From Cyanobium sp. M30B3 (GTDB taxonomy: Bacteria; Cyanobacteriota; Cyanobacteriia; PCC-6307; Cyanobiaceae): DNA of 64,000 nt. Of the stretch, positions 29,826 to 40,634 are shown in pieces (within the stretch, counting starts at the first letter, position 1; each line of letters begins with the position of its first letter). A program made the translations under genes and the position numbers. The notes beneath the pieces were generated by a model. The model ran no database searches, was not told the DNA's origin, and was given only the letters and a program-made list of their open reading frames with translations. The stretch covers positions 744,001-808,000 of the forward strand of contig CP073761.1 of assembly GCA_018399015.1 (NCBI GenBank), written 5' to 3'.

Positions 29826-30656
29826 TTATAATTCCCAGGTGCCGGTGGGCTTGCCCATGTACCGCAGCATCTGGTGAGCGTCGGGGCGCACCACCTCCAG
29901 CACCTGATCCTGCACTCTGTCGCTCCAGGCAGGCGCTGCCACCAGCCGCCTTCCCTTGTCGCCGGCCTCGTTCACGCGGGGGAGGCGGCCCTCATCCAGA
30001 AGCAGCTCCAGCTGGGCAGGCGCGGTGGAGGCCCCAAGGAAGCTGAGCAGGGTGTGGAGGGTGCCCCTGGGTTCAGCGATCAGGTCCTCAAAGGTGAGGC
30101 AGTGAATCTGCTGGTCGGGGTAGTAGGTGCGAAAGCTCTGCAGTCGCTCGTGATAGAGGGAGCAGCCCACCACAAGCTTGCGCAGGTGGCGCGAACGCAT
30201 CAGGGCGGAGAGGTCTTGCGTGCTTTGTTTCCGGCCCTTGCGATGACGCCATTGCGACACGATCCGATCCAGCGGGTGACGCACCACATAGATCAGTTTG
30301 AGGTCCGGCAGATAGCGGTGCATCAGCGCAGGGGCCTGGGCAAAGCTGTTGAGGGCGCTGGCATACATCGTGCTGCCTTCGCCTCGCAGCTTGCAGGAGC
30401 GCCCGGCCTTGAACAGCCGGCCATACCAGGCCCAGCCCTTGTCGTACCGGCGGCCAAAGAACTTCGGTTCCTTTGGCCGGCTGATGAAGAAGTCGGGATG
30501 CCGTGGCAGAATGGTGGTGAGGGTGGTGGTTGCCGATTTGGCGGCACCGATGATGATGAAGTTGGGGAGACGTCTACCCAGGGCGTCAACCTCCTGCTGG
30601 TGCTCCCCGCGCAGGCCTGCCTCAATGACCGAACGAAGGCGGCGATTGAGGCCCAA
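29826..30656 (-). CDS. Sulfotransferase (PAPS-dependent)
   Basis: 276 residues from a TTG at 30656; no ATG is available upstream before an in-frame stop. It transfers sulfate from PAPS to a glycan. FIIIGAAKSATTTLTTIL (about residues 33-50) is the 5'-phosphosulfate loop and LIYVVRHPLDRIVSQW (about 121-136) the 3'-phosphate-binding segment; EPKFFGRRY and the late FEDLIAEPRGTL also fit the family. The length is typical. It is the last gene of the minus-strand operon running from 38.5 kb, 61 bases after a second, different sulfotransferase. Confidence 0.9.
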   Translation of the reverse strand: MGLNRRLRSVIEAGLRGEHQQEVDALGRRLPNFIIIGAAKSATTTLTTILPRHPDFFISRPKEPKFFGRRYDKGWAWYGRLFKAGRSCKLRGEGSTMYASALNSFAQAPALMHRYLPDLKLIYVVRHPLDRIVSQWRHRKGRKQSTQDLSALMRSRHLRKLVVGCSLYHERLQSFRTYYPDQQIHCLTFEDLIAEPRGTLHTLLSFLGASTAPAQLELLLDEGRLPRVNEAGDKGRRLVAAPAWSDRVQDQVLEVVRPDAHQMLRYMGKPTGTWEL

Positions 30657-30717: not shown

Positions 30718-31461
30718 TTACACGGGCAGCGGCGGGCTCCAGCGTTCCAGCGGGCTGGGCGTGGCGCTGAGCTGTCCGCGCGCCAGTTGCTCCAGCTCGT
30801 TCGCTCCATAGAACACCTCCACGTCCTGGCGGTAACGGTCCCGCGCCAGGGCGATCAGGCTGTCGTCACTGAAGTACTGGCTGAGGTCGCTGCCGTCGGT
30901 GCGCCGCACGTTCTTGCTGGGCAGCTTGCCCAGGGCGGGCAGACCCGCCTGGCGCATCCGCTGGCGCAGCAGCTGCCAGTGCTCGGCCATCGCCTCCATC
31001 TGGCCGATGAACCCCGGCACGGGCACCCCGTCCACACAGAGGATGCTGCTCTGGGGCAGCAGGTGCACGTCGAGATCGGCGTCGGCGGTGGCGGCCACCA
31101 CCTCCAGAAAGCGGCGGAAGGGCATCAGCCGCTCCAGCCCCATCCGCTGCATGGCCGTGGAGAGGCTGTCGTTCTCGATCAGCTTGTTGTTGTACGCCGA
31201 CACCAGCCGGTCAAAGGGGTTGCGCACGAAGCTGAAGATGAAGTGGCTGCTGCGCCGCAGCAGGGCCTGCTCGGCGCTGATCATGGTGGTTTCCCCGTGG
31301 GTGCCCTTGCGCCAGAAGCCGTCGGCCGTGGTGCGGTAGCCCTCCTCCGGCGGCTGGGCCAGCAGACGGGTGAGGGCTGCCTTCACCGAGGAATTGGCCA
31401 CCTTCGGCACCCGTCCGTAGATCAGAGGCAGGTTCCGCAACAGGATGAAGTGCTCGCTCAC
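30718..31461 (-). CDS. Sulfotransferase family 2-like protein
   Basis: 247 residues from a GTG at 31461. It is of the Sulfotransfer_2 type found in carbohydrate sulfotransferases: IYGRVPKVANSSVKAAL (about residues 14-30) takes the place of the PAPS 5' loop, and FIFSFVRNPFDRLVSAYNNK (about 73-92) is the 3' segment. It follows the NeuB-fusion gene by only 10 bases, so it is cotranscribed with nonulosonic-acid genes. Two sulfotransferases of different subfamilies side by side suggest that two positions or two sugars are sulfated. Confidence 0.88.
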   Translation of the reverse strand: MSEHFILLRNLPLIYGRVPKVANSSVKAALTRLLAQPPEEGYRTTADGFWRKGTHGETTMISAEQALLRRSSHFIFSFVRNPFDRLVSAYNNKLIENDSLSTAMQRMGLERLMPFRRFLEVVAATADADLDVHLLPQSSILCVDGVPVPGFIGQMEAMAEHWQLLRQRMRQAGLPALGKLPSKNVRRTDGSDLSQYFSDDSLIALARDRYRQDVEVFYGANELEQLARGQLSATPSPLERWSPPLPV

Positions 31462-31471
31462 GGGATGGCCC

Positions 31472-33757
31472 TCACGCCGCGACCAGGGACGGACCTACGG
31501 CCAGCTGGTGGCGCTCCAGGCGCTCCAGGGCCAGCCAGGCCCCCTCGCCGTTGTTCTTGTGCCCCTGCCAGATCTCCGGGATGAAGGAGGCGCCGGGAGC
31601 CAGCCGAGTCAGCTGGCTGAGCAGCTGGGGCCAGTCGACGTCGCCCTCGTCGATCTGCAGCCCCTCGCCGTCCACACCCGCCGCATCGGCCAGGTGCAGG
31701 TGGGCGGTGAAGGGCAGGATGCGCTCCAGAAAACGGGAGAACGGTTCGCGCAGGTGGTTGCAGGCCAGCTTGGAGTGCGACACGTCGAGACACACCCGCA
31801 GACCCTGCTGCCGGCAGAAGCGCTCGATGCAGTCGGCGTCGACGAACAGGTTGTGATAACGCTGGCCGCCGAAGTGCCAGGGGAAGGGCGGCATGGTCTG
31901 GGGAATGATCTCCACCCCGTCGCAGCGCAGCTCCGCCAGGCTGATGGCCAGTCGCTCCAGCAGCGGTTCCCGCTCCGGCTGGCTGAGGTGGCGGTTGGCG
32001 GAGAAGCCCCCCACATTCGTCACCAGCAGCACCGGGGCCGGGCAGTGGAAACGGGTGCGCAGGCGGGCGGAGAGGTCGAGCACGCGCTGGAGTTCAGCCA
32101 CCGAGTGGCGCCGGTAGTCCGCCTCCTCGCTGCAGAGGTCGAGGGTGTGGTCGCCGGCGAACAGCTCCGGGGCATGCACCACCAGGCCCATCGGCACCCG
32201 CTCCGGCAGCACCGCGTCGATGTCCACCTCCACGTCCTTGTAGCTGAGGTGGATCTCCACCAGATCGAGGTTGCTCACCCCGCGGAACTGCTCGAGGTCG
32301 TGGTAGCGCACCGGCACGCCGAAGGGATTGGCGAAGCGGTAGGGGCGCGGTCGGGCGGCTGGACGATTCAGGTCGGATTCAAAGAAGAAGTCGCCCTCGG
32401 CCTTGTCGCTGGCCAGGCTGCGGCCGAGCAGGTCGTCGAGCCGGTAGGGCTGCAGGCCCTGGCCGGGGCTCTGGATGCGCACCATCTCCCGGCTGATCAC
32501 CGTGCCGGCGGGGATCGGGCAGGCGGCCACCAGGCTCTTGGCCAGCACCTCCCGGTTCATCAGCTCCCCCTGGCTGAGGCTGCGGGCCGCCTCGCTGCCC
32601 ATCGACTCCTCCACCGCCCGGATGCCCGCCACCATGGCCGTGAACTCCTCCGGCAGCAGGCTCACCTTGTGGTCGTTGCCCTCCATCCCCCGGTCGAGGG
32701 TGATGTGCTTCTCGATCACTGCGGCCCCGAGGGCCACGGCCGCGACCGGCACCGCGTAGCCCCGCTCGTGGCCCGAGTAGCCCACCGGCGCCTCGGCCAG
32801 CTCCGCCAGCCGGCGCAGGTAGCGCAGGTTCACGTCCTTGAACGGGGTGGGATAGGTGGAGTTGCAGTGCAGCAGGGCAAAGGAGGCGCTCTGCTCGCGC
32901 AGGTGGCGGATGCCGGCGCTGATTTCCAGCTCGGTGGCCATGCCGGTGGAGGCGATCAGGGGCTTGCCGGTGGCGGCGATGGCACTGAGCAGATCGTGGT
33001 TGGTGAAGTCGGCCGAGGCCACCTTGTAGCCGGCCATCCCCCAGCGCTCCAGCTTGGCCAGGCTGGTGGTGTCCCAGGGGGTGCAGAGGGGGATCAGGCC
33101 CCGGTCCACCGTGTGGTCGAAACAGCGGAACAGCTCGTCGTCGCTCAGCTGGAAGCGCTCCAGCAGGTCGAGCGTGTACTGGGTGCCCAGATCCGACGCC
33201 ATGTCGTTGCTGTCGCCCGCGTTCACGTACAGCTGCCCCATGTCGCGCATCTGGAACTTGGCGCAGTCGGCGCCGGCGGCCGCGGCCGCATCGATCAGCT
33301 GCAGGGCCAGCTCCAGGGAGCCGTTGTGGTTGTTGCCGATCTCGGCGATCAGGAAGGCCGGGGCGCCTTCGCCGATCGCCCGCCCATCGAGCAGGAGCTG
33401 GCGCTGGCCTCCCCTGGCCACGGCCACCACCCGGCCGTGGTCGTCGAGCAGGGGGATCACCTGGATCTTCTGGGAGAACAGGCCCGCCAGGTCGGTGGCC
33501 CCGCTGTCTTCAGGGGCCGTGACGCAGTCGGGATTCATGGCGGCCGTCACCGGCCGGCCCAGGTCGATCACATCGGTGGCGGCGATCCAGCGGCGGAAAT
33601 CGCCGTCGCTGAGCACGCCCTGGAGGATTCCCCCCTCCGACACCACGAAGATCAGCCGGCACTGGTTGGCCGTGATCTTGTTGAGGGCGGTGAGAATCGC
33701 GTCTTCCGCGAAGACCACGAACTGGGTGAAGTTCCGCTCGATCTGCACCGCTTGCAC
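31472..33757 (-). CDS. CBS - sialic-acid synthase (NeuB) - SAF - TIM-barrel fusion
   Basis: 761 residues from a GTG at 33757. Residues about 1-120 are a CBS pair (NQCRLIFVVSEGGILQGVLSDGDFRRW, abbreviated; IQVIPLLDDHGRVV). Residues about 130-380 are NeuB: PAFLIAEIGNNHNGSLELA, CAKFQMRDM, CTPWDTTSL, KVASADFTNHDLL, LIASTGMAT, LLHCNSTYPTP, GYSGHERG and IEKHITLDR. Residues about 385-455 are the SAF (antifreeze-like) lid. Residues about 470-755 are a xylose-isomerase-like/sugar-phosphate-isomerase TIM barrel (HAPELFAGDHTLDLCS, RVCLDVSHSKLACN, HLHLADAAGVDGEG). NeuB condenses phosphoenolpyruvate with a hexosamine to a nonulosonic acid; the appended barrel could supply or edit the hexose. CBS domains bind nucleotides and may regulate it. 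Confidence 0.9.
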   Translation of the reverse strand: MQAVQIERNFTQFVVFAEDAILTALNKITANQCRLIFVVSEGGILQGVLSDGDFRRWIAATDVIDLGRPVTAAMNPDCVTAPEDSGATDLAGLFSQKIQVIPLLDDHGRVVAVARGGQRQLLLDGRAIGEGAPAFLIAEIGNNHNGSLELALQLIDAAAAAGADCAKFQMRDMGQLYVNAGDSNDMASDLGTQYTLDLLERFQLSDDELFRCFDHTVDRGLIPLCTPWDTTSLAKLERWGMAGYKVASADFTNHDLLSAIAATGKPLIASTGMATELEISAGIRHLREQSASFALLHCNSTYPTPFKDVNLRYLRRLAELAEAPVGYSGHERGYAVPVAAVALGAAVIEKHITLDRGMEGNDHKVSLLPEEFTAMVAGIRAVEESMGSEAARSLSQGELMNREVLAKSLVAACPIPAGTVISREMVRIQSPGQGLQPYRLDDLLGRSLASDKAEGDFFFESDLNRPAARPRPYRFANPFGVPVRYHDLEQFRGVSNLDLVEIHLSYKDVEVDIDAVLPERVPMGLVVHAPELFAGDHTLDLCSEEADYRRHSVAELQRVLDLSARLRTRFHCPAPVLLVTNVGGFSANRHLSQPEREPLLERLAISLAELRCDGVEIIPQTMPPFPWHFGGQRYHNLFVDADCIERFCRQQGLRVCLDVSHSKLACNHLREPFSRFLERILPFTAHLHLADAAGVDGEGLQIDEGDVDWPQLLSQLTRLAPGASFIPEIWQGHKNNGEGAWLALERLERHQLAVGPSLVAA

Positions 33758-33790: not shown

Positions 33791-35098
33791 CTAGAGCCGG
33801 AAGCGGGGGGCCACCAGCAGGGCCAGGCGGCGCAGCCAGGCGGGCCTCAGACGCAGGGCCGCCAGGCGCCTGCTGATGTTGCGGTTGTCCGGCCGCTGCA
33901 GCTGGGCCATCTCCAGCAGGCGGGTGGCCTCCTCGAGATCGCCGCAGCGGATGGCGGTCTCAGCTCCCCGGCGCAGCTGGTTGGTGGAGAGGTCGGCCGC
34001 GTTCACCACGTAGCCCGGCTGGCTGAGCTGCAGCGGCGGCAGGGGATTCGCCTGCAGCTCTCGCAGGGCCTCCAGCAGGTTGGCGGGCGAGAACTGGGGG
34101 TGATAGCCCACCCAGTGCAGCCAGGCCGGATCCGGATCCGCGCCGGTCGCCAGGCCGTCGAGATCATCGGCCGTGGCCAGGGAACGCAGCAGGCCGGAGC
34201 CGGCGAAGAAGGGGGTGCCCAGGTCGGGGCGCAGGCCGAAGTCGTCCATCACCACGGCCCGGCAGCCCAGGTCGAGGGCGTCGAACAGCGCCGTCGATGA
34301 CACGGTGGTGAGCAGCCGGCTCCGGGCGAGCAGCTCGGGCAGGGGGGCGTAGCTCAGCTGCAGGTTGGCCGGCGGGCTGCCCAGTGTGTCGCGCAGGGTG
34401 TGGCTGATGTGGGTGTCCACCGCGTGAAAGGTGGATTCATGGGGGGCCACCCGCGGCTTGATCAGCAGCTCCCACTCCGGCGAACGCCGGGCCAGGCGCG
34501 CCAGGATCCGCACCAGCCGCCGCCGTTCCTCCAGGGCCGCCGGCATCACCACCTGTTCGGCGAACACCATCCGCCGCGGCCGCTCGGTCGTGCCCGCCAG
34601 CTGCCGCTGGCGGCCCAGGCCGGTGAGCACCGTGCGCTGCCCGCTGAAGGGGGTGTGGCGCAGCAGGAGCTCCAGGCGGGCCTGGTCGCGGGGGCCGTTC
34701 AGACAGATCAGGTCGTAGCCCAGCCGCCAGGCGATCGCCTCCTCGAAGCGCTCCAGCACCACGCCGTTGAAGCCGCAGAACAGGGGGCGCCGCGGCCGCT
34801 GCCGCTGTTCGCGGCTGAGCTGATACACGCTGCGGAATTCCGCCAGCTTGCTGCCGGTGAGATACACGCCGATGGCGGCGAAGCCGTCCAGCCGGCTGTC
34901 GGCGAGCAGCTGCTGGGGGGTGAAGCGCCAGAGGGGGCCACGGCGCTCCAGGGCCTGCAGCACGCTCTCCGGCGTGCCCTCCCTTGGGATGGCATTCACC
35001 GTGAAGCGCACATCCCGGCCCTGGCCCAGCCGCGCCAGGGCCTGGCAGGCGAGCAGCTGGCTGTCGCTGTCGGCCACCAGCAGCAGCTCCAGCGTCAT
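33791..35098 (-). CDS. DUF6716-like putative glycosyltransferase (copy 3)
   Basis: 435 residues from the ATG at 35098, which overlaps the upstream stop by 4 bases. GT-B/polysialyltransferase-like features are the middle LLIKPRVAPHESTFHA and, further on, LLTTVSSTALFDALDLGCRAVVMDDFG, a Ser-Ser-Thr donor-site signature. The N-terminus (LELLLVADSDSQLLACQALARL) is a Rossmann-like start. It is homologous in layout to the two genes upstream. About 33 bases separate it from the NeuB fusion. It probably polymerises or transfers a CMP-activated nonulosonic acid; this is inferred from neighbours. Confidence 0.78.
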   Translation of the reverse strand: MTLELLLVADSDSQLLACQALARLGQGRDVRFTVNAIPREGTPESVLQALERRGPLWRFTPQQLLADSRLDGFAAIGVYLTGSKLAEFRSVYQLSREQRQRPRRPLFCGFNGVVLERFEEAIAWRLGYDLICLNGPRDQARLELLLRHTPFSGQRTVLTGLGRQRQLAGTTERPRRMVFAEQVVMPAALEERRRLVRILARLARRSPEWELLIKPRVAPHESTFHAVDTHISHTLRDTLGSPPANLQLSYAPLPELLARSRLLTTVSSTALFDALDLGCRAVVMDDFGLRPDLGTPFFAGSGLLRSLATADDLDGLATGADPDPAWLHWVGYHPQFSPANLLEALRELQANPLPPLQLSQPGYVVNAADLSTNQLRRGAETAIRCGDLEEATRLLEMAQLQRPDNRNISRRLAALRLRPAWLRRLALLVAPRFRL

Positions 35099-36141
35099 CG
35101 CCGCCACCCCTCCAGCCTGCGCAGCAGCCGGGCCGGGCCATCGGCGATGCCCCAGCCCCTCGCCGCCAGCCACGCGGCGTTCACGGCGGGTGGCTCCCGC
35201 AGGCGCTCCAGGGGCAGGCAGTCGGCCAGCCGCTGCATGCAGCCGCTGCCGAAGAACAGGGGGCCGTTGAACTCGGTGCGGATGCCGTAGTCGCCCAGCA
35301 CCACCGTGGGTTTGCCCCACAGCATCGCCGTGAACAGCCAGCTGGAGGCGATGCCCAGGCAGGCGCTGGCCTGCATCAGCGCCTGCGGCAGATCCTCTCC
35401 GTCCCCCAGCTGCAGGTTGGCCGGCCGCCGCTGATCCTGCAGCCCGTGCCAGAGCAGGGAGGTGTCGGGCCACTCGGCCGGATTGGCCGGCAGGGGCCCA
35501 TCCGGCTGCAGGCGCACCTGCCAGCTGGGGCTTTCCAGGGCGATCGCGCGCAGCCGCTGGTAGAGCACGCCGTTGGCGAACGGCGACGGCGGCACCTGGG
35601 GCTGGTCGAGCACCAGCAGCACCGGCTCCTGGCTGGGCCCATGGCCGATCGGCTCGCTCACCAGGCACCAGAGCCCGAGCAGCTCGCTGGCCTGCTCGCT
35701 CCGCCCGCAGCTGCGCAGCAGCCAGCCCAGCTCCTCCTGCTGGGCCTCCCCCTGCACGCAGATCAGGTCGTAGCCGAGCCGCGGCAGCAGGTCGGCCATC
35801 AGGGCATCGCCGCACAGGGGGCGGATCGGGCCGGTGAACAGGCCGCAGGGCCGCACGCCCCGCAACCGTGCCGCCTGCCGATGGGCCTGCCGGAACGGAG
35901 TCAGCGCCGGACCTTCGAGAAACACCCCCAGGGCATCGAGCTCCAGCACCAGCTCGCTGGTGGCGGCGGCCAGCGGTGCCAGGGGCAGCCAGGGCAGGCC
36001 CTCCCCGGCATCGCAGACGGCCGGCAGCGAGGGATCGGCGCCGATCAGGGTCACCTGCGCTCCCAGGTGCTGAAGCTCCAAGCCCAGGCGCTGACAGGCC
36101 CCCAGCCCCGGCTGTCCCTCGCAGATCAGCCCCAGCCTCAT
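35095..36141 (-). CDS. DUF6716-like putative glycosyltransferase (copy 2)
   Basis: 348 residues from the ATG at 36141. The N-terminus LGLICEGQPGLGACQRLGLEL is the family's Rossmann entry. The donor-site segment reads CLGIASSWLFTAMLWGKPTVVLGDYG, parallel to the Ser-Ser-Thr segments of its two sister genes but with Trp-Leu after the Ser pair. It lacks the 'KPR' motif of the other copies, so it may be a weaker or non-catalytic member. It is coupled at both ends by 4-base stop/start overlaps. It is probably a cytoplasmic partner in making the polymer. Confidence 0.72.
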   Translation of the reverse strand: MRLGLICEGQPGLGACQRLGLELQHLGAQVTLIGADPSLPAVCDAGEGLPWLPLAPLAAATSELVLELDALGVFLEGPALTPFRQAHRQAARLRGVRPCGLFTGPIRPLCGDALMADLLPRLGYDLICVQGEAQQEELGWLLRSCGRSEQASELLGLWCLVSEPIGHGPSQEPVLLVLDQPQVPPSPFANGVLYQRLRAIALESPSWQVRLQPDGPLPANPAEWPDTSLLWHGLQDQRRPANLQLGDGEDLPQALMQASACLGIASSWLFTAMLWGKPTVVLGDYGIRTEFNGPLFFGSGCMQRLADCLPLERLREPPAVNAAWLAARGWGIADGPARLLRRLEGWRR

Positions 36142-37430
36142 CGCCCCTTGAACAGCCGCTCCAGCAGCCAGAGCCCCACCAGGTTCTGGCGGATCCGCCG
36201 CAGCAGGTCGCGTCCCCTGTGGCTGGCCCCCTGGCGCGAGCGGGCTCCCGCCGAACTGAGCATCCGGCGTCCGCCCTTGGCCAGGGCATAGGTCTGCCAG
36301 CCCGTGCTCCCCCAGCCGGCGGGCCCTGGGCGGGCCAGGGTCTCGCCGCAGGGCGGCGCGCTGAGGCGTTGGGCCAGGGCGTTCACGAAACGTTGGGCTC
36401 CGTCGGCGCGGTAGCCCTGGCGTTCCAGCCAGTGCGGGTCATGCACCGGAGTGAAGGGGTCGCGCACGATCGCCTCAAAGCTGGCCAGGGCGCCCGACTC
36501 CACGAAGTAGTGGTTGCCCAGGCTCTCGTTGACGCCAAGATCGGCCACGATGCGTGTGCTGATCCCCATGGCCATCGCCTCCATCGCCGCTGTCGATGAC
36601 ACGGTGATGGCGCAGCCGCAGCGCTTGAGCAGGCTGAGGCTCGGCTTGTAGCTGATTTCCAGATTGGTGATCCGGCGGCTGAGCTTCTCCACGCGGCTGC
36701 CCATCCCGCCGTGATGGCGGTGCAGGGTGGCCTCCACGGGCGAGGTGCGGGGCTTGAAGATCACCGGATGCTGGGGCCAGGCCTTGGCCAGGTTCGCCAG
36801 GCCCCGGCAGATGTATTTCCGCTGGATCGGGTTGTCCGGCACCGACGGCTGCTCGAAGAACACGATCGCCGCCCCATCCGGCACCTGCAGCCGCGCTTCC
36901 AGCGGCCAGAGAATCGGCAGTCCGGTGATTTCCGCATTGCTGCCGTCGATGCCCAGGGCGGCGCAGGCCCGGCGGTAGAGCTCGGCGTCGCTCTCGGAAT
37001 TGAGGCAGAGCAGATCCACCCCCGAGCGATCCATCATTCCCTCCAGCTGGTGGCGGAAGAGGATCCCCGGGTAGGCACTCACCAGCACCGGCCTGCGCTC
37101 CTGGCCGACCCAGGCCGACTGCAGCAGCAGCTGGCTCTCGCGGGTGCGCCGGCCATCGAGTCCGAGCACCAGGGCATCAAGGCGAACCAGTTCGGCGCGC
37201 AGCTCGCGCAGCTTGGGCCATGGCCGCTGACGGATGCGGGTGCGTGGGTCGATGCGGCGGATCTCCAGAACCTGCCGTCGTGACAGTTTCCGGCCGGGCA
37301 GCTCGAGCAGGTAGAGCTGGGTCTCAGCCCCTTCCCGCCGCGCCACCCGCAGCAGGTTCATGGCCGTCTTGCCGAAGGAGTCGAAACAGGCCAGCGCGGC
37401 CACCTGGCGCCCCTGCAAGCTGCCTGTCAT
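36138..37430 (-). CDS. DUF6716-like putative glycosyltransferase (copy 1)
   Basis: 430 residues from the ATG at 37430. It is the clearest family member: VAALACFDSFGKTAMNLLRVA at the start, PVIFKPRTSPVEATLHRHH near residues 225-245, SLSLLKRCGCAITVSSTAAMEAMAMGI near 280-305, then DLGVNESLGNHYFVESGAL. The His-containing KPR region and SSTAAMEAM resemble the donor site of bacterial polysialyl- and sialyltransferases. It overlaps the cytidylyltransferase stop by 4 bases. I infer that it uses the CMP-sugar made by that enzyme. Confidence 0.8.
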   Translation of the reverse strand: MTGSLQGRQVAALACFDSFGKTAMNLLRVARREGAETQLYLLELPGRKLSRRQVLEIRRIDPRTRIRQRPWPKLRELRAELVRLDALVLGLDGRRTRESQLLLQSAWVGQERRPVLVSAYPGILFRHQLEGMMDRSGVDLLCLNSESDAELYRRACAALGIDGSNAEITGLPILWPLEARLQVPDGAAIVFFEQPSVPDNPIQRKYICRGLANLAKAWPQHPVIFKPRTSPVEATLHRHHGGMGSRVEKLSRRITNLEISYKPSLSLLKRCGCAITVSSTAAMEAMAMGISTRIVADLGVNESLGNHYFVESGALASFEAIVRDPFTPVHDPHWLERQGYRADGAQRFVNALAQRLSAPPCGETLARPGPAGWGSTGWQTYALAKGGRRMLSSAGARSRQGASHRGRDLLRRIRQNLVGLWLLERLFKGR

Positions 37431-38194
37431 CGGACGGCCCCGGCCTGGGCATCCGAGCGGCCCTCTCCCGCGCCATCCAGCAGGGGAGCCAGTCGCTCGC
37501 AGACGGAGAGGTCGTGCGGGCTGTCGATCTCCGGGGCCAGGGCTTCAATCGCCACGGGCAGGGCGGGCAGCACAAAGCGGTTGCCCTGCTCCAGGAAGGG
37601 CAGGGTGCGGATGGCGTAGATGGCGCCGGTCTCCAGGTAGGTGGGCTCAAGGTCCTGGCGCCGCTGGCGCGGCAGGCGGGCGTCGTGATTCACCCCCACG
37701 CCGTGGCCCTGGGCGTCCTGGCGCCAGAGAAAGCCATGCCAGGGCACCACACTGAAGGCCATGTTGGCGGTGCTTCCCTCCAGCGCATGCACCACCGCAT
37801 CGATCTGGGTGGCGGTGGTGAACGGAGACGTGCACTGCAGAAATACGAACGTACCGGGTAGCGGGCCGGCCTGGGCCAGGGTGCCCAGGGCGTGCAGCAG
37901 GGCCGACTCCGAGGAGGCCTGGTCGCCGGCGATGGCGGCTGGGCGCCGCAGCCAGCCGGCCCCCTCCCGCTCCGCCAGGGCGCCGATGGCCCCGTCGTCG
38001 CTGCTCACCCACACCGCACCCAGGGCCCTGGCGCTGCGGGCGGCGCGCACGCTGCGGGCCAGCAGGGGCACTCCGCCCACCGGCCGGAGGTTTTTGCCGG
38101 GGATGCCCTTGGAGCCACCGCGGGCCGGGATCACGGCCAGCGGCGGCAGCAGGGGATCGATGGGGATTCGTGGCTCACCCTGCACGCTCGTCAT
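37427..38194 (-). CDS. neuA: CMP-sugar cytidylyltransferase (NeuA-like)
   Basis: 255 residues. It activates a nonulosonic acid to its CMP form with CTP. AVIPARGGSKGIPGKNLRPVGG (about residues 19-40) is the CTP-binding signature, followed by VWVSSDDGAIGALAE, LQCTSPFTTATQID and YLETGAIYAIR, all typical of CMP-N-acylneuraminate synthetases. The length fits. It sits next to DUF6716-like transferases and shares the operon with the NeuB fusion, so sialic-acid-like sugar rather than Kdo is the likely substrate, though KdsB-type specificity cannot be fully excluded. It overlaps both neighbours by 4 bases. Confidence 0.88.
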   Translation of the reverse strand: MTSVQGEPRIPIDPLLPPLAVIPARGGSKGIPGKNLRPVGGVPLLARSVRAARSARALGAVWVSSDDGAIGALAEREGAGWLRRPAAIAGDQASSESALLHALGTLAQAGPLPGTFVFLQCTSPFTTATQIDAVVHALEGSTANMAFSVVPWHGFLWRQDAQGHGVGVNHDARLPRQRRQDLEPTYLETGAIYAIRTLPFLEQGNRFVLPALPVAIEALAPEIDSPHDLSVCERLAPLLDGAGEGRSDAQAGAVR

Positions 38195-38517
38195 GCCGTC
38201 GCGGCGCTGGCGGGGTGGCGCAGGCGACCGTTGGCCCCCAGGGGGTAGAAGCGCAGTCGCCCGGCCGGCGAGTCGGGCACGGTCGCGTCCGGGCGGCGGG
38301 GGGGCTGACCGGAGCTGCTCGCTGTGCCCAGGCCGGGATCCTGCTGATGCTGTTGCGCCGCCTGGATCACCTTGCGCACCCGTCCCTCAGGAATCCCGGT
38401 GTCTGCGGAGACCGCCGCACAGAGCGCTGCCATCGCCTCTGCCGGCACCTGGATCCTCACGACTGGCACCTGAACCTGCACGGGTGAAACCTCAACACAG
38501 CCCAGGATCCCGAACAA
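38191..38517 (-). CDS. Small hypothetical protein heading the nonulosonate operon
   Basis: 108 residues if it starts at the TTG at 38517; several in-frame GTG codons just inside could be the true start. The core VPAEAMAALCAAVSADTGIPEGRVRKVIQAA is a plausible small helical domain, followed by a Gln/Pro/Ser-rich disordered tail ending in RLRFYPLGANGRL. I recognise no family. Its stop overlaps the cytidylyltransferase start by 4 bases, the same coupling seen in the next three junctions, which argues that it is real. It may regulate or assist the operon. Confidence 0.45.
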   Translation of the reverse strand: MFGILGCVEVSPVQVQVPVVRIQVPAEAMAALCAAVSADTGIPEGRVRKVIQAAQQHQQDPGLGTASSSGQPPRRPDATVPDSPAGRLRFYPLGANGRLRHPASAATA

Positions 38518-38663
38518 TCCTGCGGTGGCAACGGGGGTGGCTGAGAACGTAGCAGTGATGGGCGCGGCAATGGCTCTGGGTAGCTTGGACCCCCGCCGCC
38601 GGCGCGTTCTCTCCCTTGGCCCTCCCCCCCGCCGCCGCGCGCCTGGGTCTGCCCGAGACGGGC

Positions 38664-40634
38664 ATGCTCCGCCATGCCACGCTTCCGGCCCTGCTGGGGT
38701 CCTACCGCCTGGTGCGGGGTTCCGGCCGCTGCCGGCATGCTCCGCTCGATGGCCTGCTGGCGTGGGGGCGCAAGCCCAGTGCCCGCCCCGCCGAGCGCAT
38801 CGGCGCCGCCCGGGGTCTCCCCCTCTGGCGTTGTGAGGACGCCTTTCTGCGCTCCCTGGGCCTGGGGCCCGACAGCCCGCCCCTGGGGCTGCTGCTCGAC
38901 GACCTGGGGGTGTACTACGACGTCACGGCCCCCAGCCGCATGGAGCAGGCGATCGCCCGGCCCCACAGCACGGCCGAGCTGGAGCGGGCCGCGGCCCTGC
39001 GGCAGCTCTGGTGCCAAGCCCGTGTCAGCAAGTACAACGGCGCCCCGGATGCCCCCGCCCCCGCCGGCCCCTTCGTCCTGGTGGTCGACCAGACCGCCGG
39101 CGACCTCTCCATTGCCCTCGGGGCGGCCAGCGCTGCCAGCTTCACCGCCATGCTCGAGGCCGCCCTGGCGGCCCACCCCGGCGCCACGGTGGTGGTGAAG
39201 ACCCACCCGGATGTGGCGGCGGGCCGCAAGCGCGGCCATTTCAGCCCCCGCCAGCTGGCCGGTTCCCGCATCGTGCTCGAGGCCAGCGGCGGCCACCCCG
39301 CCGCCCTGCTGGAGCGGGCCGAGGCCGTGTATGTGGTGACCTCCCAGCTGGGCTTCGAGGCCCTGCTGCACGGCAGGCCGGTGCACTGCTTCGGCCTGCC
39401 CTTCTACGCGGGCTGGGGCCTCACCCACGACCAGCTCCCCGCCCCGTCCCGGCGCCGGGCGGCCGGGCGCCGCCGGCTGGCGGACCTGGTGCATGGGGCC
39501 CTGATCGAGGGGGCGCTCTACATCGATCCCCACCAGCACCGGCCCTGCAGCGTGGAGGAGCTGGTGGCCGCCATCGGCCTGCAGCGGCGCCTGCGCGGGG
39601 CCCTGCCCGAGCCGATCGAGGCCTTCGGCTTCACCCCCTGGAAGCAGCGGGTGCTGCGCCGCTTCCTGCCGGTGCGGCGGCTGCGCTTCCGCTTCCCCTG
39701 GCAGCGCCCGGGCCGCTCAGCCGCCCTGGTGGCGATCTGGGGCCGCCGCGCCCAGCCCGGCCTGCTGGGGGCGGTGGAGCGCCGCCGGCTGCCCCTGCTG
39801 CACGTGGAGGATGGCTTCCTGCGCTCGGTGGGCCTCGGGGCCGACCTGATCGATCCGATCTCCTGGGTGCTGGATCGCCGCGGCATCTACTACGACGCCA
39901 GCGCCCCCAGCGACCTGGAGCACCAGCTGGCCCACGGCCAGTGGAGCCAAGCCCAGCTGGAGCGGGCCGCCCGCCTGCGCCAGCGGCTGGTGGAGGGGGC
40001 CATCACCAAGTACAACCTCAGCGCCCCGGCCTGGCGGCGTCCCGAGGGCGCCCGGCGGGTGGTGCTGGTGGTGGGCCAGGTGGAGTCGGATGCCTCGATC
40101 CGCCTCGGCGCGCCGGGCCTGCGCGGCAACCTGGCCCTGCTGGAGGCGGTGCGCCGGGCCGAGCACGGGGCCTATCTGGTGTACAAACCGCACCCCGACG
40201 TGGTGGCCGGTCTCTGCCGCGAGGGGGAGGGGGAGGCCAGGGCCGCCCAGTGCTGCGATGAGGTGCTGGTGGAGGCCTCGATCCAGCAGCTGTTCACCCA
40301 GATCGATGCCCTGCACGTGCTCACCTCGATCGCCGGCTTCGAGGCGCTGCTGCGCGGGCTGGAGGTGCACACCTGGGGCCTGCCCTTCTACGCCGGCTGG
40401 GGGCTCAGCCACGACCGCTGCCGCAGCGAGCGGCGTGGGCGCCAGCTCGGGGTTGATGCCCTCGTGCATGGGGCCCTGATCGACTATCCCCGCTACGTGA
40501 GCCGCCACAGCGGCCTGTTCATCGAGCCGGAGCAGGCCATCGACGAACTGCTGGCCTGGCGCGCCGCCCCGCCCCAGCCCCTCAGCCTGCGCCAGCGGAT
40601 CTTCCGCCACTGGGGCCGCCTGCGGCGGCGCTGA
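38664..40634 (+). CDS. kpsC: Capsule polysaccharide synthase KpsC, two tandem domains
   Basis: 656 residues from the ATG at 38664 (GAGACGGG lies upstream; a TTG at 38616 would add 16 residues). KpsC adds beta-Kdo residues alternately to build the poly-Kdo linker that anchors group 2-type capsules to lipid. Both halves show the family pattern: AWGRKPSARPAERI then CEDAFLRSLGLG, and AIWGRRAQPGLL then VEDGFLRSVGLG; each has a YYD...P segment, VVKTHPDV or VYKPHPDV, and a late TSQLGFEALLHGRPVHCFGLPFYAGWG-type motif (abbreviated). Full-length KpsC is double-domain, so this is complete. The next gene begins 1 base after the stop. Confidence 0.93.
   Translation: MLRHATLPALLGSYRLVRGSGRCRHAPLDGLLAWGRKPSARPAERIGAARGLPLWRCEDAFLRSLGLGPDSPPLGLLLDDLGVYYDVTAPSRMEQAIARPHSTAELERAAALRQLWCQARVSKYNGAPDAPAPAGPFVLVVDQTAGDLSIALGAASAASFTAMLEAALAAHPGATVVVKTHPDVAAGRKRGHFSPRQLAGSRIVLEASGGHPAALLERAEAVYVVTSQLGFEALLHGRPVHCFGLPFYAGWGLTHDQLPAPSRRRAAGRRRLADLVHGALIEGALYIDPHQHRPCSVEELVAAIGLQRRLRGALPEPIEAFGFTPWKQRVLRRFLPVRRLRFRFPWQRPGRSAALVAIWGRRAQPGLLGAVERRRLPLLHVEDGFLRSVGLGADLIDPISWVLDRRGIYYDASAPSDLEHQLAHGQWSQAQLERAARLRQRLVEGAITKYNLSAPAWRRPEGARRVVLVVGQVESDASIRLGAPGLRGNLALLEAVRRAEHGAYLVYKPHPDVVAGLCREGEGEARAAQCCDEVLVEASIQQLFTQIDALHVLTSIAGFEALLRGLEVHTWGLPFYAGWGLSHDRCRSERRGRQLGVDALVHGALIDYPRYVSRHSGLFIEPEQAIDELLAWRAAPPQPLSLRQRIFRHWGRLRRR

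Follow-up and report, generated by a model that had tools for sequence, protein, structure and literature searches.

How does one bacterial protein come to combine a sialic-acid-type synthase with a CBS pair and a second, xylose-isomerase-like barrel, and what would the combination do? The question is raised by a minus-strand gene of Cyanobium sp. M30B3, located in a stretch of 64,000 nucleotides (contig CP073761.1, positions 744,001 to 808,000) that was analysed as a whole and is called the window. The gene belongs to a widespread family of fused ulosonic acid synthases in which the C-terminal barrel is probably active but non-standard and the CBS sensor probably swappable; the steps beyond the NeuB chemistry are those that we infer. 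We favour, at a probability of roughly 0.4, a self-contained 3-deoxy-ulosonic acid synthase, in which the barrel would make the aldose acceptor, the NeuB-SAF part would condense it with phosphoenolpyruvate (PEP), and the CBS pair would sense a cytidine monophosphate (CMP)-sugar. No description of a CBS-NeuB-SAF-barrel fusion was found in the titles and abstract openings of the open literature, outside which most subscription journals lie. The gene and its parts are:

31472..33757, minus strand: CBS-NeuB-SAF-barrel fused ulosonic acid synthase, 761 amino acids (aa), GTG start
33401..33757, minus strand: CBS pair, residues 1-119
32573..33400, minus strand: NeuB (PEP-condensing) barrel, residues 120-395
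32354..32572, minus strand: SAF (antifreeze-like) lid, residues 396-468
31475..32353, minus strand: xylose-isomerase-like barrel, residues 469-761

Four domains in one reading frame

All four Pfam matches of the window protein exceeded the curated cut-offs. These were CBS (PF00571) in two stretches (4e-8, 33.9 bits, cut-off 24), NeuB (PF03102) at residues 154-389 (1.4e-77, 260.8 bits, cut-off 22.1), SAF (PF08666) after NeuB at 407-463 (3.5e-9, 37.5 bits, cut-off 21) and AP_endonuc_2 (PF01261) at 523-739 (6.7e-18, 65.7 bits, cut-off 31.1). A scan with the barrel gave 292 genome stretches with relatives; only the 80 top-scoring ones were retained, so that the tally leans to close relatives (loci are numbered with L and genomes with G). 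All four parts were present in one open reading frame (ORF) at 77 of these 80 loci, and an earlier note on this DNA, which had placed a CBS pair, NeuB, SAF and a barrel in a single frame, is confirmed in this respect. Since the four-part order is kept in the relatives, the fusion is real, and chance, a frame artefact or an assembly join is excluded as its source. The three exceptions were L059, which is frameshifted, and L081 and L082, which are cut by contig ends; they were left out of the full-length alignment (n = 78), while the barrel alignment held all 80 loci and the window. At L059:4546-6852, from the Arsukibacterium metagenome-assembled genome (MAG) M30B15, a frameshift or a sequencing error distributes the parts of the fused gene among different frames. 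The full-chain AlphaFold2 model had a predicted local distance difference test (pLDDT) score of 90.0 and a predicted template modelling (pTM) score of 0.72.

The NeuB-SAF part

Residues were mapped onto the Neisseria and Campylobacter synthases via HMMER alignments. Ten positions (E139, K167, Q169, T226, K245, S248, Y302, H330, H351 and D362) were identical to the Neisseria enzyme (NmNeuB) and invariant in 78/78 aligned full-length members, in all of which D250 was also invariant. The NmNeuB residue numbers, and in part the PEP- and metal-binding roles of these residues, are those that we take to apply. The model superposed on NmNeuB with Z 39.0 and a root mean square deviation (rmsd) of 3.1 over 341 residues, and the NeuB part had the highest mean identity of all domains (0.649, against 0.594 for the barrel). 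The NCBIfam models for N-acetylneuraminate synthase (TIGR03569, NeuB_NnaB; 303.9 bits, cut-off 399.65) and pseudaminic acid synthase (TIGR03586, PseI; 229.5 bits, cut-off 340.25) were not reached. The description "full sialic-acid synthase" in the earlier note is therefore right for fold and family and goes too far at the level of these two models.

According to PMC7371886, the position governing C2 specificity is Gly in synthases of N-acetylneuraminic (Neu) and legionaminic (Leg) acid and Phe in those of pseudaminic acid (Pse). In the fused family it was Ala in 76/78 and Pro in 2/78. Position 184 was Ser in 78/78, as in the Pse class, and the Glu134 position (NmNeuB numbering) was Asp in 78/78. 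Because of the C2 Ala, the Pse-like Ser184, the Asp for Glu134 and the missed cut-offs, the acceptor is not assignable by sequence to Neu, Leg or Pse. Compared with NeuB, LegI and PseI (PF03102), the fused protein thus shares the PEP/metal residues, the SAF lid and a neighbouring cytidylyltransferase, and differs in the added CBS pair and C-terminal barrel, in missing both equivalog cut-offs, and at the Glu134 and C2 positions.

The C-terminal barrel

The AlphaFold2 model of the barrel alone (pLDDT 90.9, pTM 0.90) had as its nearest solved fold 3wqo, the D-tagatose-3-epimerase-like protein MJ1311 (Z 25.0, 2.6 Å over 249 residues), which Foldseek likewise ranked first. The Thermotoga ketose 3-epimerase followed at Z 23.7-23.9. 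Other epimerases and endonuclease IV were level at about 22-22.6 (Pseudomonas cichorii tagatose 3-epimerase 22.6 at best, endonuclease IV 21.9-22.5), and xylose isomerase lay at about 21.5. Art22, which is structurally close to the barrel, was the subject of no paper found among the titles and abstract openings of the open literature.

The strand ends of the barrel carry H503, H528, N581, Q620, D658, H686 and E728. With H661, these were invariant in 78/78 members, except N581, which was kept in 76/78. Most members have the motif E-I-I-P-Q-T-M-P-P-x-P-W-x-F-G-G-Q around Q620. The metal site of ketose 3-epimerases is Glu-Asp-His-Glu, in which the strand-5 Glu serves as both metal ligand and base. 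In the fused barrel this site is incomplete: Asp658, His686 and Glu728 are invariant, and the first Glu is replaced by Gln620 in 78/78. Profile alignment set Q620 against the Glu of the L-E-N strand end in 3wqo, and D658, H661 and H686/H688 against Asp and His residues of that protein, strand 8 being outside the alignment; the Gln-for-Glu equivalence rests mainly on this alignment and on the modelled strand ends. The Gln620 equivalent is also kept in the members that have no CBS pair, including the L208 and L211 translations. When the barrel profile was compared with the profiles of other AP_endonuc_2 groups, the probabilities were only 6.3 and 2.8, the second without strand 5; the groups comprised 16 proteins (12 + 4) from 29 listed loci, with L120, L124, L132 (no frame recovered), L133, L136, L138, L141-L145, L147 and L148 left out.

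MJ1311 and the ketose 3-epimerases (PF01261) therefore agree with the fused barrel in fold, in H-x-P on strand 3 and Asp/His on strands 6/7 (all aligned with 3wqo), and in a Glu after strand 8, which is outside that alignment. They differ in the invariant Gln for the strand-5 Glu, in the P-Q-T-M-P-P-x-P-W-x-F-G-G-Q loop, and in that the present barrel is fused to NeuB in all strong matches inspected except the frameshifted L059.

Invariant columns numbered 46/287 in the barrel, 47/276 in NeuB and 4/119 in CBS. Because barrel and NeuB are comparable in this respect, we regard the barrel as a working domain, probably active and not a standard isomerase. The proposal of the earlier note, which it had made depend on the metal ligands, thus passes this check only by half: the Asp, His and C-terminal Glu positions are invariant, and the strand-5 Glu is an invariant Gln. 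That replacement speaks against an unmodified member of the xylose isomerase, IolE or hexulose-phosphate isomerase families, with which the note had wished the barrel compared.

Source of the acceptor

NeuC and PseG were sought in 18 of the 19 picocyanobacterial genomes with a frame of four-part size, G001 (87% complete) being left out. The four-part architecture was read in 13/18 and judged by frame length (760-774 aa) in 5. NeuC (TIGR03568) above cut-off was absent from 17/18 genomes (exception G257) and PseG (TIGR03590) above cut-off likewise from 17/18 (exception G016), so that 16/18 had neither. The best NeuC match of the window genome scored 85.9 bits against a cut-off of 235.9. A weaker TIGR03568 match of 71-92 bits was found in every one of the 18 genomes and is probably the housekeeping UDP-N-acetylglucosamine (UDP-GlcNAc) 2-epimerase. 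We assume that TIGR03568 would match LegG too. The PseG of G016 lies about 2 kb from a second, ordinary NeuB, and G011 had a weak PseG match of 29 bits. Hydrolysing epimerase families were absent among the neighbour proteins scanned.

The window genome also encodes a second synthase, far from the fused gene:

G000:C1:3045615-3046307, plus strand (locus L002): second, ordinary NeuB, 361-aa frame, S-G-D motif

With both enzymes absent above cut-off from 16/18 genomes, it is simplest to suppose either that an ordinary sugar is turned into the acceptor by the fused barrel, or that a common sugar such as mannose already serves as the acceptor. Since the window genome's second synthase, an ordinary NeuB, also stands without NeuC and PseG above cut-off, other acceptor routes must be possible, and the absence alone does not show that the barrel supplies the acceptor. 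Ketose-epimerase chemistry acts on the carbon next to a carbonyl, and C3 of the NeuB product is a CH2; since the chemistry needs a neighbouring carbonyl, the barrel would act on the aldose acceptor rather than on the 3-deoxy product.

The CBS pair and its mobility

The CBS pair is the least conserved domain of the fused protein. CBS1 carries the motif (T/S)50-D51-G52-D53, with (T/S)50 and D53 in 78/78; CBS2 has no such motif. A T-x-x-D type site is a feature of CBS nucleotide sensors. The best solved match was the CBS pair of an arabinose-5-phosphate isomerase (4o9k, 4.3e-9), an entry that presumably holds CMP-3-deoxy-D-manno-octulosonic acid (CMP-Kdo). A CBS switch acting as a nucleotide sensor is plausible, and its ligand would be expected to be the CMP-sugar of the pathway rather than an adenylate.

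The subtype, with (T/S)-D-G-D-x-R-R, is shared with the CBS pair of KpsF/KdsD (4o9k) and with CBS-bearing sugar nucleotidyltransferases, which we take to be PtmE-like. At L055 it is carried by a sugar nucleotidyltransferase, which like the fused synthase is an enzyme of an ulosonic acid pathway; the routes to Kdo and legionaminate presumably also have such a CBS on a pathway enzyme. In contrast to KpsF/KdsD and the PtmE-like enzymes, the fused protein has the CBS pair on the synthase itself.

CBS-less NeuB-SAF-barrel proteins (L118, L203-L207, L208 and L211) have the same core and motifs and differ in having no CBS pair. The L203-L207 clade has a synthase of about 630-670 aa, and at 5/5 of its loci the same CBS subtype is joined to an HddA-like GHMP kinase in one upstream ORF, directly upstream in four loci and about 0.9 kb upstream in L205. 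When four sequences were compared with five, the CBS parts of synthases and kinases shared 27-39% identity in their main matches, with E values from 2e-10 to 4e-20. Two such loci are:

L206:11297-12679, minus strand: CBS pair joined to an HddA-like GHMP kinase; a CBS-less NeuB-barrel and GmhA- and HddC-like genes accompany it
L207:11210-12595, minus strand: the same arrangement

The gene set of L206 and L207 would be a possible heptose-to-ulosonate cluster. A CBS module shifting among sugar-activation and ulosonate enzymes is best read as a sensor of a common pathway metabolite. End-product control of such a route has a precedent in animal GNE, which is inhibited by CMP-N-acetylneuraminic acid (CMP-Neu5Ac) according to PMC13214540.

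A very divergent CBS-less NeuB-barrel of 613 aa is encoded by a small-genome picocyanobacterium (L118:5570-7411, minus strand), where it adjoins a GDP-mannose-dehydratase-like gene and a carbamoyltransferase-like gene, the latter read from its translation.

Gene neighbourhood

The fused gene lies within a close run of minus-strand genes, with a cytidylyltransferase and three DUF6716 genes upstream and, downstream, two sulfotransferases and a family 2 glycosyltransferase; further glycan genes are nearby. The neighbours are:

38457-39539, minus strand: 360-aa ORF upstream of the cytidylyltransferase, without Pfam or NCBIfam match
37427..38194, minus strand: cytidylyltransferase (PF02348) and partner enzyme, a PseF-like CMP-ulosonate synthetase scoring under the PseF cut-off
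36138..37430, minus strand: DUF6716 (Pfam) putative glycosyltransferase, copy 1
35095..36141, minus strand: DUF6716 (Pfam) putative glycosyltransferase, copy 2
33791..35098, minus strand: DUF6716 putative glycosyltransferase, copy 3; start inferred from the overlap with the upstream stop, 33791-34870 scanned
30718..31461, minus strand: sulfotransferase family 2 (Pfam), next gene in the same direction
29826..30656, minus strand: sulfotransferase family 1/3 (Pfam)

A cytidylyltransferase of the same family was found near the synthase in 62/80 loci, and no other neighbour family was as constant. DUF6716 clusters were present in 19/81 regions (80 loci and the window), with 57 ORFs counted; this domain was named in no paper found among the titles and abstract openings of the open literature. 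HddA-like and GmhA-like genes were found in 0/80 four-domain loci and HddC-like genes as weak matches in 4/80, and a heptose pathway was accordingly rejected as the general context of these loci.

Relatives in viral-type contigs

Four IMG/VR contigs encode a barrel relative, and L208, L209 and L210 among them are near-copies (12819 of 12825 bases). The L208 and L211 proteins are CBS-less NeuB-SAF-barrel proteins of 617 and 629 aa, with best cellular matches 52-55% identical. Their gene groups are:

L208:4361-6843: GT29 gene near the NeuB-SAF-barrel gene, with a CMP-synthetase gene no more than about 6 kb away
L211:3748-6870: the same grouping

The gene of the GT29 sialyltransferase family (3.1e-19 and 6.5e-20) is directly upstream of the synthase in L208 and one gene away in L211. 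The cytidylyltransferase gene is next to the synthase in L211; in L208 it follows about 5 kb downstream, and a DHDPS-family gene is directly downstream. A 19-kb stretch of the L211 contig (L213) encodes PhoH-, UvsX-, DnaB-, primase- and exonuclease-like phage proteins, with PHROG matches for 5/5 proteins tested, against 0/5 tested on the L208 contig (L212). By these protein matches, a phage nature is therefore supported for the L211 contig only. Among 50,697 deposited phage records, 3 had a match, essentially to the NeuB-SAF part.

GT29 gave no match in loci L001-L207 and is not supported as a general partner, being seen solely in the viral-type contigs. GT29 points to a sialic-acid-type product; it is no proof for the window, as the family was not found near cellular members.

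Distribution of the family

Hosts include Cyanobacteriota, Pseudomonadota, Bacillota, Bacteroidota, Thermodesulfobacteriota and Campylobacterota, among others. The window genome is one contig of 3.18 Mb whose closest genus-named relatives are Cyanobium; in its genus the fusion was present in 10/12 other genomes, the two without it being 77-78% complete. The window also encodes a phycobilisome linker protein, which together with these relatives marks the organism as a picocyanobacterium.

In the tree, which was quick and midpoint rooted, the 19 picocyanobacterial rows (window included) grouped with proteobacteria, apart from the 20 other cyanobacterial rows, and this placement suggests that picocyanobacteria and other cyanobacteria acquired the fused gene separately. 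L118 was on a very long branch, long branches meeting at the CBS-less clade were flagged, and gains and losses of the CBS pair are left undecided by this tree.

Four phylum samples (292, 398, 398 and 395 genomes; G321, G322 and G323 as seeds) were scanned for the barrel, and stand-alone close barrels were absent among the strong matches. The 292-genome sample gave 24 matches: 21 strong (frames of 749-892 aa), G273 in a 617-aa frame and two weak; four parts were present in all 15 loci inspected, and the remaining strong ones were judged by length. Of 17 matches in the first 398-genome sample, 5 were strong (two frames of 763-778 aa, three of 646-652 aa); the second had 33 matches with the seed alone strong, and the 395-genome sample 8, with 3 strong (753, 670 and 637 aa). 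The weak matches did not exceed about 40 bits and were almost all confined to the strand 6-7 region.

N-terminal extensions at L058, L062, L024 and L063 were considered as a fifth domain, which is not supported, the frames being stop-to-stop; only that of L062 was scanned, without a Pfam or NCBIfam match, and the L058 frame has the same length and scores. L058 and L062 have one and the same synthase, in one case from a MAG labelled Actinomycetota and in the other from Sphingomonas corticis; the MAG contig is probably mis-binned.

Discussion

In the self-contained synthase that we favour, the C-terminal metal barrel would convert a common sugar into a manno-type aldose acceptor, via C2 epimerisation or ketose-to-aldose isomerisation, and the NeuB-SAF part would condense this aldose with PEP. 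The PseF-like enzyme of the same gene run would then charge the product to CMP, and the DUF6716 glycosyltransferases might place the charged product in a surface glycan. The N-terminal CBS pair would bind a nucleotide sugar of the pathway, most likely the CMP-ulosonate, and so tune flux. A more far-reaching proposal, less likely than not, is a compact, self-sufficient route to a new or unexpected ulosonic acid: a single protein would both prepare the acceptor, by means of a metal barrel with Gln in its site, and join it to PEP. A mobile CBS sensor would pass between synthase, kinase and nucleotidyltransferase, and the core cassette of synthase, CMP-synthetase and sialyltransferase would travel on phages too, possibly decorating the host surface or the virion.

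Several observations weigh against the favoured reading. The window genome has its second, ordinary NeuB and yet neither NeuC nor PseG above cut-off, and mannose or some other free sugar, for which no special enzyme is needed, could serve as acceptor. All 78 aligned full-length members have Gln in place of the strand-5 Glu of ketose epimerases, so that the two-Glu mechanism cannot work in its usual form. The NCBIfam isomerase models (xylose isomerase, IolE, hexulose-phosphate isomerase) gave no match to the barrel up to E = 1; it may still be a distant member of one of these families. The correlation of domain distances between NeuB and barrel (0.915, reached by 0/500 permutations) is no special sign of coupling: CBS-NeuB (0.899) and SAF-NeuB (0.864) correlate likewise, so that it shows the shared descent expected of an old fusion. 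Control by CBS is not essential, since CBS-less members exist, and the placement of the domains relative to each other is uncertain (chain pTM 0.72). Lastly, no cytidylyltransferase was found in 18/80 loci, some contigs being short and truncated ones counted as misses. The coupling of acceptor preparation to PEP condensation, as put forward in the earlier note, thus gains from the kept fusion, from barrel conservation near that of NeuB and from the 16/18 genomes without NeuC and PseG, and loses from the missing strand-5 Glu.

Among the alternatives, the most credible, though still unlikely, is that mannose is converted to ketodeoxynonulosonic acid (Kdn) or to a closely related ulosonate without an amino group, whether or not the barrel provides the mannose by acting on fructose; this is either a special case of the self-contained synthase or an alternative without barrel input. 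It is in keeping with the 16/18 host genomes lacking NeuC and PseG above cut-off and with the GT29 genes of two viral-type contigs; the acceptor pocket, for its part, differs at C2 from the Neu, Leg and Pse classes, the ones compared. We also think it unlikely that the barrel works after NeuB, by hydrolase- or phosphatase-like trimming of a phosphorylated product or by remodelling of the ulosonate before CMP activation. Endonuclease IV, which uses a tri-zinc ligand set, belongs to the same fold superfamily and scores about level with the P. cichorii epimerase. Its ligand set is not kept (N581 and Q620 stand in it, and the D-x-H after strand 7 reads D-G-E-G in the window), and the two highest-ranking structural neighbours, both of epimerase type, exceed it by more than 1 Z unit. 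The CBS-less clade is nevertheless accompanied by a kinase-type sugar-phosphate pathway, and if the acceptor were a sugar phosphate, the product would still have to be dephosphorylated, as happens on the way to KDN through NANS and NANP (PMC13214540).

Equally hard to favour, if not slightly more so, is an ordinary Neu/Leg/Pse-type synthase whose barrel is accessory or regulatory without a reaction of its own. The NeuB part does have the higher mean identity, the canonical metal Glu is lost from the barrel, and the ordinary NeuB of the window genome manages without NeuC or PseG above cut-off as well. Against this stand the 46 invariant barrel columns, which include D658, H661, H686 and E728 as well as a large part of the loop that follows Q620, the missed NeuB_NnaB and PseI cut-offs, and the Ala at the C2 position in 76/78, neither the Gly nor the Phe of the known classes (PMC7371886). 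A heptose acceptor, which would give an ulosonic acid of ten carbons, or some other chain length outside the standard ones, appears quite improbable. The idea comes from the CBS-less sister clade, whose synthase lies beside an HddA-like heptose kinase in 5/5 loci, an HddC-like gene in 3/5 and a GmhA-like gene in 2/5. When L206 was scored in full, however, all three fell below the NCBIfam cut-offs (HddA 257.5 of 600, GmhA 185.9 of 276, HddC 128.8 of 300), the four-domain loci have the near absence of such genes given above, and two viral-type contigs pair the synthase with a sialyltransferase family, GT29.

If the self-contained synthase is correct, many environmental bacteria, picocyanobacteria included, would make a sialic-acid-type sugar by a route that gene-based predictions of nonulosonic acids keyed to NeuC, LegG or PseG would miss. 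It would also bring in a barrel enzyme whose active site is unusual, and a CBS feedback module exchanged between enzymes that activate sugars and enzymes that make ulosonates. For the organisms that carry it, the fusion may allow an unusual acidic surface sugar to be made without the usual helper enzymes.

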